From: Desulfosarcinaceae bacterium
Lineage (GTDB): Bacteria > Desulfobacterota > Desulfobacteria > Desulfobacterales > Desulfosarcinaceae
DNA length: 64,000 nucleotides
Reading direction: 5' to 3'
Assembly (NCBI GenBank): GCA_030066015.1
Contig: JASJCL010000012.1
Span: forward strand, 1-64,000
Of the stretch, positions 53,056 through 57,293 are shown one piece after another (the stretch's first letter is position 1; the number at the start of each line of letters is the position of its first letter). The notes under the pieces are model-generated. The model searched no databases and was not told where the DNA came from. It saw only the letters and a list, made by a program, of their open reading frames with translations. Made by a program: the position numbers and the translations under genes.

Positions 53056-53703
53056 TCAGCCCATCTGGGCGACGATATCCAGGGTTTCGGTAGGATCGGG
53101 CCGCTGGGTATAATCGGCGTTGAGGTCTGCGTGGCGGATGATGCCGTCGCGATCGATGACATAGCGGGCCGGTATGGGCAGGGTCCATGAGTCATCGCCA
53201 TTGTGCGCCGGCACATCGATGCCGAACTGCTGGTAGAGCGCCTTGAGATCTTCGGGCAGTGCGTGGCGCAGGCCGAATTGGGCCGCCACCGTATTGCCGG
53301 GGTCGCTGAGGATCTCCACCACCAATTTCTTCTCTTCGGCAAATGCGCGGTTGTGTTCGACCAATTGCGGCGAGATGAGCATCAGTGTCGCGCCGGCTTC
53401 AGCAAATTGGGGTGCTGCCTTGGAAAGAGCTTCCAGCTCTAAGTTGCAATACGGTCACCAACGGCCACGATAAAAACCGAGCACCAGTGTTCCCTTGGCG
53501 AGGGTATCCGCGAGGGACACGGCGGTGCCGGTTTGATTGGTAAGGGTGAATTGAGGGGCCGCATCCCCGCTCTTGAGGGCCTTTTCGACGAGGCCCGAGC
53601 TTCGAAGATCCTCTGTGGCCCGGTGCATCACGGCGAGCGCCTCGGGCGGGGCCTTCTTTTCAAATGCGGCTTTGTATTTGTCCAATCGCTCCTGGAGTTT
53701 CAT
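53056..53703 (-). CDS. Peroxiredoxin-like selenoprotein with Sec at the peroxidatic position
   Basis: Reading from ATG 53703 (AGGAG upstream), the frame meets a single UGA at 53455-53457 after GFYRGRW and then continues without interruption to 53056 (PYCNLELEAL onward). The UGA, codon 83, replaces the Cys of the family motif FYRGxWCPYCN, so it almost surely encodes selenocysteine, with Cys86 as resolving partner (UxxC). The full product is 215 residues with a typical AhpC/TSA (PrxL) fold, including a C-terminal DRDGIIRHADLNADY strand. A bacterial SECIS-like hairpin follows the UGA. It likely reduces peroxides in the cytoplasm. A frameshift or nonsense pseudogene is unlikely because the frame is intact on both sides. 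Confidence 0.9.
53426..53440 (-). promoter_or_regulatory. Candidate bacterial SECIS apical hairpin
   Basis: Directly downstream of the UGA the mRNA reads AGAGCT-GGA-AGCTCT, a perfect 6-bp stem with a G-containing loop. The loop is at nucleotides 24-26 counted from the U of UGA, within the distance SelB needs. Loop sequence differs from E. coli fdhF, as is common among bSECIS elements. Confidence 0.7.
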
Positions 53704-53912
53704 GATGTCTCCTTTGCGGTTAGGGGGAAGATCGGTCGCGGCCCCAATTTGGGCAGGCCTGTGGCGGGTGGATCGGATCATTTGCCATCCAGTCCTCCAT
53801 ATCATAAGCGCAGGTGAGCGAATGTCGAACGGGGAAAACGCGGCGGTCGCGACTGTTTCGGTGGGGGGGAATCATCGCGCATTCATGGCTGCGCACTTGA
53901 TCGCATCGCCCC

Positions 53913-54508: not shown

Positions 54509-55699
54509 CTATACTGCCACCATCTCCGCACGGATCACCTCCCCCAAAATCGCCACGGCCCGCTCCAGGGAGTGGGGGTCGGCCATGGTAAAGTTTAGCC
54601 GCATCGTGCCCAGCCCTTGAGACGGCTCGGTGTAGAAAAATTTGCCGGGGACAAAGGCGGTACCGTGCTGCACGGCCCGATGATAAACCCTTTCCATATC
54701 GAGGCCCTCGGGTCCCTCGGACCAGACGAACATGCCGCCCTCGGGGCGTGACCAGTTGAAGCCGGCTGGGAAGTGGCGTTCCAAGGCGTCGAGCAGCGCC
54801 CGTTGCCGCGGTCGATAGAGGTTTAGGATTCGGGGCAGATGCTTTTCGAGGTGTCCGCCATCGAGGTAGATGGCGGCCAGGGCCTGACCCAGAGTGGAAG
54901 TGTGCAGGTCAACGCCCTGCTTGACCTTCACGAGGGCCTCCCGGAGGCGTCGGGGTGCCGCCACGAAGCCGATGCGCAAGCCCGGTGCGAATAGCTTGCT
55001 GAGCGTAGAGATGTAGGCCACATGGTCGGGTGCGAAACACTTTATCGGGGGCTGCGGCTCCCCGCGGTAGCGCAGCCCGCTGTAAGGATCGTCCTCGATG
55101 AGCAGCACGTCGTACCTCTGTATGAGCGCCGCGATCCGTTTGCGGCGCGCCAGCGAGAGGGTCCGACCGGTGGGGTTCTGAAAGGTGGGCACCAAATAGA
55201 CGAGCTTCACCGGTTCCCGGCAGAGCTGCGCTTCCAGCGCCTCAGGGATGACGCCGTCATCATCCGTGGCCAGCGAACAATAGCGGGGACCATAGGGACT
55301 GAACGCCTGGAGCGCCCCCAGATAGGTGGGCGCCTCCACCGCCACCGCATCACCGCGGCCGATGCAGACTTTTCCGAGTGCGTCGAGCACTCCCTGGGAT
55401 CCACTGGCGATGAGGATGTGATCCGCGGCGGCCGCTATCCCCTGGGCAGCCAGGTGGGGGACCAGGGCCTCCCGCAGAGGACCGAAGCCCTCGGTCGCCT
55501 CATATTGTAAGGCACCGGCACCATAGGTTGCGAGCGCCTGGTGGGTCAGCCGCTCGATGAGGTCCAGGGGGAAACTCTCTGGAGCCGGGATGCCGCCGGC
55601 CAGAGAGATCATCCCCGGCTGGTTGACCACTTTGAGAATCTCTCGAATGGCGTTGGTGCCAAGATCGGCCATTCTCGGTGCCAGCCACTGCTTCTCCAT
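54509..55699 (-). CDS. PLP-dependent aminotransferase, LysN/2-aminoadipate type
   Basis: The 396-residue fold-type I aminotransferase has the PLP lysine in STLSKLFAPGLRIGF, the substrate block FQNPTGRTLSLARR, and DDPYSGLRY. It resembles LysN/Aro8-like enzymes and the aminotransferase part of MocR regulators. It is divergent from the MocR gene at 55818 with an operator-like palindrome between, so it is probably the regulator's target. GGAGGGG upstream supports the ATG. Confidence 0.92.
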   Translation of the reverse strand: MEKQWLAPRMADLGTNAIREILKVVNQPGMISLAGGIPAPESFPLDLIERLTHQALATYGAGALQYEATEGFGPLREALVPHLAAQGIAAAADHILIASGSQGVLDALGKVCIGRGDAVAVEAPTYLGALQAFSPYGPRYCSLATDDDGVIPEALEAQLCREPVKLVYLVPTFQNPTGRTLSLARRKRIAALIQRYDVLLIEDDPYSGLRYRGEPQPPIKCFAPDHVAYISTLSKLFAPGLRIGFVAAPRRLREALVKVKQGVDLHTSTLGQALAAIYLDGGHLEKHLPRILNLYRPRQRALLDALERHFPAGFNWSRPEGGMFVWSEGPEGLDMERVYHRAVQHGTAFVPGKFFYTEPSQGLGTMRLNFTMADPHSLERAVAILGEVIRAEMVAV

Positions 55700-55743: not shown

Positions 55744-55817
55744 CTCTATCGAGGGGCTTGCTACAAGAACAGTCACAGAAATGATGTGTGGGCACCATAA
55801 CAGATAGAGAGGTCGCT

Positions 55818-57293
55818 ATGCCGACCCGCGTAAGCCCGCCGGATCGACCGCTGGCCAGAGCGTTCCGCTACGTGCGTCTGGCGGACGAACTCGAGGGCAA
55901 GATCCGCAGTGGCGTCTATCGGGTGGGAGAGAAACTGCCCTCCATCCGAAAATTGCGCGCCCGCACCGGCCTGAGCATCTCCACCGTTTACCAGAGCTAT
56001 ATCGAATTGGAAAAACGCGGTCTGGTGGAACCGCGGGTAAAGTCCGGCTACTTTGTCAAGGTACGCCGCGATCACTTACTGGCGACCCCGAAAACGCGCT
56101 CAACGCGTGTGGCGCCCACCCGGGTGGCCATCAACGACCTGACCCGCACCATCCTCTCCACCCTCAACGATCCGGGCATGGTTCAATTCGGTGGCGGCGC
56201 CCCGTCGCCGGAGCTGCTGCCCCACCGTCAACTGCTGCAGACCATCAAGGGGAACGGGTCGCGGCACTTGACGGCGGCCCTGACCCAATATCTGCCGGTG
56301 GAGGGGTTGGCGGACTTGCGCCGCCAGATCGCCCAGCGGATGCTGGGCTGCCGTCAGGCGTCCGTTCTGGATGAGCTGACCGTCACCAGCGGCTGTATGG
56401 AAGCCGTCAGCCTCTGCCTGCGGTCCGTGGCCAAACCCGGCGACACGGTCATCGTGGAATCCCCCACCTTCCATTGTCTCCTGCAGCTCATTGAGGATCT
56501 GGGGATGTTCGCCCTGGAACTGCCGGCCGACCCCCGCAGCGGTATCGACCTGAAGGAGATGGAAAGGGCAATCTCCCGCCATCGGGTGGCAGCCTGCATC
56601 TTCATCAGCAACTTTCAGAACCCGCTGGGCTACGCTCAGCCGCCGGCTGAGAAACAAGCCCTCGTTCAACTTCTGAACGATGCGGAGATCCCCATCATCG
56701 AAGATGATATCTACGGAGAGATGTACTTCGGTGAGAAACGACCGGCGACGTTGAAGCAGTTCGACCGCAAGGGGCTGGTGCTCTATTGTGCCAGCTTTTC
56801 CAAAACCCTCTCACCGGGGCTGCGAGTGGGCTGGACTCTGGCTGGCCGCTATACCGCGGCCGTTCAGCGCCTCAAGATCAACACCAGCATCACCACCGCC
56901 ACCTTGAATCAATTCATGCTGTCCGAATTCCTCAAAACCGGCGCCTACGACCGCCACCTGAGACGCCTGCGCATGGCCCTGAAGACCCAGGTCAGCAATG
57001 CGGCGATGGCCATTGGCCGACATTTTCCTGCCGACACTCGTCTGACATCGCCGGCAGGGGGGCTGCTATTGTGGGTGGAATTGCCCGAAGGCGCAGACAG
57101 CCTGAGAATCTTCAATGCCGCCCGCCAGAAGCGGATCACCTTCCTGCCGGGCGTGATCAATTCCGCCGATCCCGAACGCTACCGCAGTTGTCTGCGCATC
57201 AGCTGCGCCCAGCCATGGAGCGACACCCACGAGGCGGCCATGGCAACACTGGGACGCCTGGTAAAGGCGGATATCGATGACCATGGTCACTGA
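55818..57293 (+). CDS. MocR-type transcriptional regulator (GntR HTH-aminotransferase fusion)
   Basis: The 491-residue protein has an N-terminal winged helix (GVYRVGEKLPSIRKLRARTGLSIS) and a C-terminal aminotransferase-like PLP domain with NFQNPLGYAQP and the PLP lysine in ASFSKTLSPGLRVGW. The ATG at 55818 has GAGAGG five bases upstream. An in-frame ATG at 55788 is less likely. It probably controls the divergent aminotransferase in response to an amino acid or PLP. Its 3' end overlaps the opposing peptidase gene by 7 bp. Confidence 0.93.
   Translation: MPTRVSPPDRPLARAFRYVRLADELEGKIRSGVYRVGEKLPSIRKLRARTGLSISTVYQSYIELEKRGLVEPRVKSGYFVKVRRDHLLATPKTRSTRVAPTRVAINDLTRTILSTLNDPGMVQFGGGAPSPELLPHRQLLQTIKGNGSRHLTAALTQYLPVEGLADLRRQIAQRMLGCRQASVLDELTVTSGCMEAVSLCLRSVAKPGDTVIVESPTFHCLLQLIEDLGMFALELPADPRSGIDLKEMERAISRHRVAACIFISNFQNPLGYAQPPAEKQALVQLLNDAEIPIIEDDIYGEMYFGEKRPATLKQFDRKGLVLYCASFSKTLSPGLRVGWTLAGRYTAAVQRLKINTSITTATLNQFMLSEFLKTGAYDRHLRRLRMALKTQVSNAAMAIGRHFPADTRLTSPAGGLLLWVELPEGADSLRIFNAARQKRITFLPGVINSADPERYRSCLRISCAQPWSDTHEAAMATLGRLVKADIDDHGH

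Follow-up and report, generated by a model that had tools for sequence, protein, structure and literature searches.

We report that an internal UGA codon in a peroxiredoxin-like gene of a bacterium of the Desulfosarcinaceae almost certainly codes for selenocysteine (Sec) in the reactive site of a redox enzyme. The gene was found in a stretch of 64,000 nucleotides, referred to below as the window, and the explanation that best accounts for the evidence as a whole, which we consider very likely, is a selenoprotein of the peroxiredoxin fold with Sec at residue 83 and Cys at residue 86, decoded via a SECIS hairpin within the coding sequence. Comparison with related genes and genomes establishes the reading frame, the UGA at the site, the constraint on the hairpin, the presence of the Sec-decoding machinery and the predicted fold.

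The frame of 215 codons (Table 1) contains one internal stop, the TGA at codon 83, in the translated context FYRGRW-U-PYCNLEL, and Cys86 is the sole cysteine of the protein. The protein matches the Pfam family AhpC-TSA (PF00578) at 8.2e-30, with 103.7 bits against a gathering score of 26, and the family Redoxin at 5e-21; many homologues align with it from residue 1, and no export signal was seen in it by eye. An earlier note made from the letters of this DNA gave the correct coordinates of the gene but left its strand unstated. Its observations of a single in-frame UGA with the frame intact on both sides, and of a good start with AGGAG, agree with ours: the relatives keep the frame, and a ribosome-binding site containing AGGAG lies 5 bases before the ATG. 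Within the 64-kb window no tRNA genes were found, nor any Rfam match at gathering score. The same part of the window holds divergent ORFs at 54509-55699 (minus strand) and 55788-57293 (plus strand) that by eye resemble PLP-dependent aminotransferases, the latter with a GntR-like N-terminus of the MocR type.

Table 1. Positions of the gene and its elements in the window.
Feature	Position	Strand	Basis
Sec-containing peroxiredoxin-like protein, CDS (215 aa and terminal TGA)	53056..53703	minus	Pfam match
In-frame UGA, codon 83, predicted to be read as selenocysteine	53455..53457	minus	codon alignment of homologues
Cys86, UxxC partner of Sec83	53446..53448	minus	translation and homologue alignment
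Putative SECIS hairpin AGAGCU-GGA-AGCUCU, within the CDS	53426..53440	minus	stem codons fixed where the site is TGA, free where it is Cys
Ribosome-binding site AAAGGAG, ATG 5 bases on	53709..53715	minus	direct reading
Front ORF piece, 116 aa, upstream ATG to UGA	53455..53805	minus	standard ORF calling
Rear ORF piece, 108 aa	53056..53382	minus	standard ORF calling

Standard ORF calling splits the gene into the front and rear pieces listed in Table 1, as would be expected if translation truly ended at the UGA, whether in a pseudogene, through a sequencing error or because two distinct genes are present. Wherever gene callers treat every UGA as a stop, annotation of such genes will probably yield two broken pieces. 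Searches of the order (389 genomes) and of the phylum (395 genomes) both returned many full-length homologues, 37-61% identical to the window protein, with exactly one in-frame TGA; the matches listed from the sampled genomes of the order represent at least 73 family groups. The main set was restricted to tblastn matches with E <=1e-20 extending to residue 150 and spanning codon 83, which dropped the fragment L179, the distant match L180 and a DsbA-like match in L173 (L numbers designate loci); L260 and L261 duplicate L177 and L147 and were omitted. The codon itself decided whether a gene was classed as a TGA or a Cys form. The homologues covering the site comprise the order-search matches above 140 bits, a few weaker rows, 80 loci from the genome_contigs collection, two loci from the genome of L076 and the phylum matches. 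Among these 182 homologues (window gene included), which are no census because other fragments and weaker order-search matches were left out, codon 83 is TGA in 93, TGC or TGT in 88, TAA in one and nothing else in any. The alignment with Cys-bearing homologues that the earlier note had proposed as a check thus finds Cys at codon 83 in 88 of the 182.

The TGA homologues are spread over many family groups, and none of the 93 has a second stop in the aligned stretch. Cys is found at position 86 in all 93 of them and in all 88 Cys homologues, and the rear half of the protein is conserved in frame. TGA stands at the aligned codon 83 in each of the 30 loci that were read first, among them that of the window, and TGC or TGT in each of the 80 genome_contigs relatives, a set that leans to Cys because the peptide search patterns held WCPYCNLE. 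Close relatives with a shifted frame, named beforehand as evidence that would speak against the selenocysteine reading, did not turn up; the relatives instead keep the frame and carry TGA at the same codon.

Decay of the gene does occur in the family, for example in L150, with a TAA and a mismatched hairpin, and in the partial L177, with extra stops. A real stop is nevertheless difficult to reconcile with 93 homologues from many family groups that have TGA at this very codon and no other stop where they align, with the in-frame conservation of the rear half and with the extra constraint on the hairpin codons described below. As far as comparison of sequences can decide, the real-stop explanation is already largely refuted, and we consider it extremely improbable.

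Several individual loci deserve comment. The 93 TGA genes include the window gene (L104), its paralogue L147 and L175. L147 lies in the same genome (contig C56, 4781-4149), is 48% identical to the window gene and likewise has a UGA at the site and a hairpin; L175 comes from a metagenome-assembled genome titled Acidobacteriota that spans 10.7 Mb and is perhaps mixed. The TGA homologue L177 (876-496) matches from residue 82 on and may be a broken copy or the product of a frameshift in the assembly, since further stops lie just upstream of the site. In L150 (1226-594) the Sec site is TAA, and a C-A mismatch occurs in the hairpin. A reading of UAA as Sec in that genome was considered and rejected: its tRNA-Sec has the anticodon TCA, and the hairpin is not unusually stable (z 0.09). 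The tRNA-Sec anticodon and the mismatched, unstabilised hairpin make gene decay or an assembly or sequence error the probable origin of this TAA. L171 contains two neighbouring copies of the Cys form (822-1454 and 2111-2743) in a genome that has selA.

The hairpin noted earlier downstream of the UGA, with a stem of 6 bp, is present; it has a GGA loop and, counted from the U of the UGA, extends from 17 to 31 nt downstream, with the loop starting at 23 nt. The bSECISearch paper is said to use a distance rule of 16-37 nt to the loop. Taken by itself, the window hairpin is undistinguished: 85 of 200 dinucleotide shuffles fold at least as well (z -0.13), it matches none of the Rfam SECIS families, and the 101 bases surrounding the UGA, compared with Rfam at permissive settings, yielded only a chance snoRNA match (E 9.1). 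Because the hairpin of this single sequence is no better than shuffles, the case rests on comparative evidence. For bacterial SECIS elements, the portion of the source consulted (PMC1088965) describes a stem-loop that directly follows the UGA and carries a G in its small apical loop. The window gene shows both a stem-loop directly behind its UGA and a G in the small apical loop.

The comparative evidence consists primarily of codon choice. Across the TGA genes, which are related and hence do not provide independent trials, Glu89 is GAG in all 92 genes having Glu (38.9 expected from the codon use of the same genes), Leu90 is CTG in 90 of 93 (37.5 expected) and Ala92 is GCT in 79 of 84 (11.8 expected). 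The Cys relatives have no such excess: GAG in 30 of 87 (37.2 expected), CTG in 26 of 85 (36.5) and GCT in 9 of 84 (11.4). A folding test, in which the stretch from about +13 to +43 was compared with synonymous recodings that keep the protein and use the gene's own codon use, separates the two forms in the same way. For the TGA genes (n=69) the mean folding energy was -9.0 kcal/mol versus -4.35 kcal/mol after recoding (mean z -2.19), with 67% of the genes at p <=0.05, whereas for the Cys genes (n=87) it was -5.11 versus -5.14 kcal/mol (z 0.02), with 6% at p <=0.05.

Two layouts of the hairpin could be distinguished among 89 of the 93 TGA genes, four genes with repeated 48-base stretches being omitted. 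In the common layout (GAGCU-GGA-AGCUC; 78 distinct sequences) the seven pairs are formed in 92.9% of cells, compared with 38-54% when the arms are slid. The second layout, in 11 sequences picked by eye after the sequences had been seen (L158, L160, L163, L169, L170, L240, L241, L245, L251, L257 and L262), consists of GAGCUGC, a 7-nt loop starting with GG or AG, and GCAGCUY, with the 3' arm shifted downstream; its pairing is formed in 97.4% of cells, compared with 13-44% when slid, and the exact 3' arm GCAGCUY is found in 8 of the 11. The distant TGA homologue L247 has neither the GAG-CTG codons nor the common hairpin and fits neither layout well. Compensatory double-sided change was found in one of 546 cells of the common layout (in L121), which 33 of 500 shuffles equal, and in none of the second layout, where 500 of 500 shuffles reach the observed values. 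These covariation statistics are weak because the stem hardly varies, and the codon constraint is therefore used as support.

The genome that contains the window (5.73 Mb in 155 contigs, 96.6% complete) has all the components expected of a Sec-decoding organism, as the earlier note had supposed. Each of them exceeds its curated cut-off: tRNA-Sec with 73.4 bits (cut-off 47), selB with 363.1 (242.25), selA with 607.8 (267.9) and selD with 370.3 (125). ARAGORN calls the same tRNA gene tRNA-Sec with anticodon TCA (UCA). Absence of selAB and tRNA-Sec had been set beforehand as a result that would count against the selenoprotein, and all were looked for and are present. Of 14 well-known genomes used as controls, 5 exceed the cut-off for tRNA-Sec, 2 that for selB, 1 that for selA and 2 that for selD; judged by these numbers, the tRNA-Sec cut-off is the loosest of the four. 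Co-occurrence of the gene with selA says little, because a profile search places selA over its cut-off in 357 of the 389 genomes of the order. The selD gene of the window's genome (L018 / L182, contig C94, 14023-14946) has one in-frame TGA, so that its selenophosphate synthetase is probably itself a selenoprotein.

The same data bear on whether, through suppression or an altered genetic code, the UGA specifies one of the standard amino acids (Trp or Cys). The inserted residue cannot be read from the sequence alone, and of the 89 homologues that lack TGA, 88 have Cys at the position and one has the TAA. This explanation is opposed by the gene's own terminal stop, which is also UGA, by the presence of tRNA-Sec with anticodon TCA together with SelA, SelB and SelD, and by a hairpin of the known bacterial type after the UGA, whose constraint is absent from the Cys relatives. 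We regard reading as Trp or Cys as highly implausible, and insertion of Sec at codon 83 as next to certain on the genomic evidence.

The predicted model of the protein (pLDDT 95.0, pTM 0.91) has a peroxiredoxin fold following a helical N-terminal extension of ~40 residues. Structurally it is most similar to AhpE, with Z 21.9 and an rmsd of 1.4 over 151 residues, and to Bcp proteins; Foldseek ranks 5epf first. In a sequence alignment to 5epf, residues 83-86 fall on TPGC, with Sec83 on the Thr and Cys86 on the Cys, which we take to be the peroxidatic Cys of that protein. In the model the helix 84-95 starts right after residue 83, and in the protein's own Cys relatives codon 83 is the first Cys of a CxxC motif. 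The earlier note's placement of the UGA exactly at the peroxidatic Cys therefore has to be corrected, as it lies three residues upstream, aligned with the Thr of TxxC in 5epf; the UxxC redox centre that the note proposed is retained in the form of Sec83 and Cys86. Given this alignment and the predicted model, the window protein combines a UxxC centre of thioredoxin-like layout with a peroxiredoxin fold.

A protein of the TxxU type, in other words a canonical peroxiredoxin whose peroxidatic residue is Sec, would account for the matches to Pfam AhpC-TSA and Redoxin and for the fold. It does not account for the active site: where such proteins have PxxxTxxC/U, the window protein reads RGRW-U-PYC, with Arg79 in place of Pro, Sec83 in place of Thr and Cys86 in the last place of the motif. 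Moreover, TxxU proteins form a separate class in the parts of the published classifications consulted. We judge the TxxU assignment to be very unlikely and retain the UxxC centre.

By established bacterial mechanism, as outlined in the sources consulted in part, SelB carrying Sec-tRNA binds the mRNA hairpin and the UGA is decoded. In the window gene SelB would accordingly insert Sec at codon 83, while the terminal UGA of the gene would still end translation. Sec83, placed just before the N-terminus of the active-site helix, is the likely attacking nucleophile, and Cys86 would resolve it as an intramolecular Se-S bond. Because the protein has no other Cys (and 75 of the 93 TGA genes likewise show none where they align), such an internal bond is the natural oxidised state, and we consider this selenium-sulfur chemistry to be quite probable; the bond would presumably be reduced again by thioredoxin or a similar donor. 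The genome contains a dissimilatory sulfite reductase gene (dsrA, 595.2 bits), and the enzyme would most likely serve to reduce hydroperoxides or protein disulfides in a bacterium bearing that reductase. Taken together with the 73 family groups of the order and the near-universal selA, dsrA points to an order of sulfate reducers such as Desulfobacterales. In 22 regions of 4.5 to 15 kb (around the window gene, its own paralogue and 20 others; crude ORF call), no gene family is found next to the gene in more than four, and consequently no operon partner or substrate can be named from the neighbourhood.

The two possible substrates are difficult to separate. The same Sec protein may act in thiol-disulfide exchange, as thioredoxin-like proteins do, instead of peroxide reduction. 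The CxxC/UxxC layout resembles that of thioredoxin and ResA, and the ResA profile matches all 36 members of set A1, which includes Cys relatives, at E 0.001 or better, with the window protein itself at 36 bits, far under the cut-off of 170. The published name 'Prx-like thiol:disulfide oxidoreductase', in the portions of the literature consulted, points in the same direction. On the other side, the top-listed folds are peroxidases, and Cys86 occupies the place of the peroxidatic Cys of peroxiredoxins. We give thiol-disulfide exchange a little less than an even chance, and peroxide rather than disulfide as the main substrate is evenly balanced in our estimation.

The relationship between the Sec and Cys forms was investigated with two trees, the first containing 154 of the 157 main-set homologues and six SelL-related rows, the second reduced to 66 rows by thinning above 62% likeness with all 11 second-layout genes kept. 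A single clade of the 49 TGA rows in the 66-row tree is rejected (p-AU 0.002, in an AU test run after the first tree had suggested the answer). All 11 second-layout genes fall into a single starred group, whose 28 rows also include 14 Cys forms and three other TGA forms. The 66-row tree requires at least eight changes between TGA and Cys, a count that includes many weak branches, the starred branches forcing only two for the Cys group; the first, larger tree requires four. The trees thus suggest that Cys and Sec replaced one another more than once, and gains cannot be separated from losses because the tree is unrooted. A more far-reaching interpretation, to which we assign about an even probability, is that the genes form a separate, wide-spread selenoprotein subfamily lacking an NCBIfam model, that several switches between Cys and Sec took place, and that independent Sec lineages built the two hairpins from the same codons of the active-site helix. 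If true, this would provide a natural series showing the origin of SECIS elements within protein-coding DNA.

The window protein scores under the cut-off of all seven NCBIfam models that it touches at E 0.001 (release 20.0). One of these is NF040769 (SelL_rel_redox, SelL-related redox protein), to which it is homologous over positions 2-170 of the 173 of the profile. The members of that family come from the same order of bacteria and likewise have UxxC, as FLRH[FY]G-U-PFC in the nine members read; the window protein, however, reaches 44 bits against a cut-off of 120, and six NF040769 members form a separate group on a long branch of the tree. Among the 20 SelL_rel_redox matches L196-L215, 18 have one in-frame TGA with scores of 88 to 118 against the same cut-off, and NCBI naming may miss these because they lie below the curated 120 bits. 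For the Cys relatives of the window protein, the name 'peroxiredoxin-like family protein' is carried by 15 of the 25 plasmid matches listed.

Another peroxiredoxin-like selenoprotein, assigned to cd02970, comes presumably from an Olavius symbiont. It resembles the window protein in having Sec first in the motif, and differs in that the motif is UxxS and was placed under PF13911 in 2022, according to the part of the source consulted, whereas the window protein has UxxC. PF13911 (AhpC-TSA_2) has no match to the window protein at E 0.001; it matches 9 of the 36 members of set A1, the best at 1.8e-5. The Sec peroxiredoxins, in the published tables consulted in part, also belong to PF00578 with Sec at the active site, in the motif PxxxTxxU. 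Their Sec is at the peroxidatic position, three residues downstream of that of the window protein.

Prx-like UxxC selenoproteins have been in print since 2005, and the class that the window protein most resembles is the Prx-like thiol:disulfide oxidoreductase (PF00578, UxxC/UxxU), referred to as 'Prx-like' in the Sargasso Sea set and 'Prx-like 1' in the GOS set and represented by WP_010940744.1 (PMC13188914, PMC9312934, PMC1088965, PMC1794560, PMC2398784, each consulted in part). Both have a UxxC replacing TxxU and, by the tables of 2008 to 2026, the domain PF00578, the likeness being one of published description, and the window protein indeed has the two attributes of the class, PF00578 above the gathering score and the UxxC motif. 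Its Cys relatives in set A1 are 45-54% identical to it over the full length and have the same motif, FYRGxW-C-PYCN, and differ in that Cys replaces Sec and no constrained hairpin follows the site. On sequence grounds, then, the window gene is a real selenoprotein gene of a known kind, and its product probably belongs to a subfamily that has no public model of its own. With 93 TGA and 88 Cys versions of one protein, this family is a good system for finding out what Sec adds to UxxC, and the same set is useful for the study of SECIS gain and loss under protein-coding constraint.
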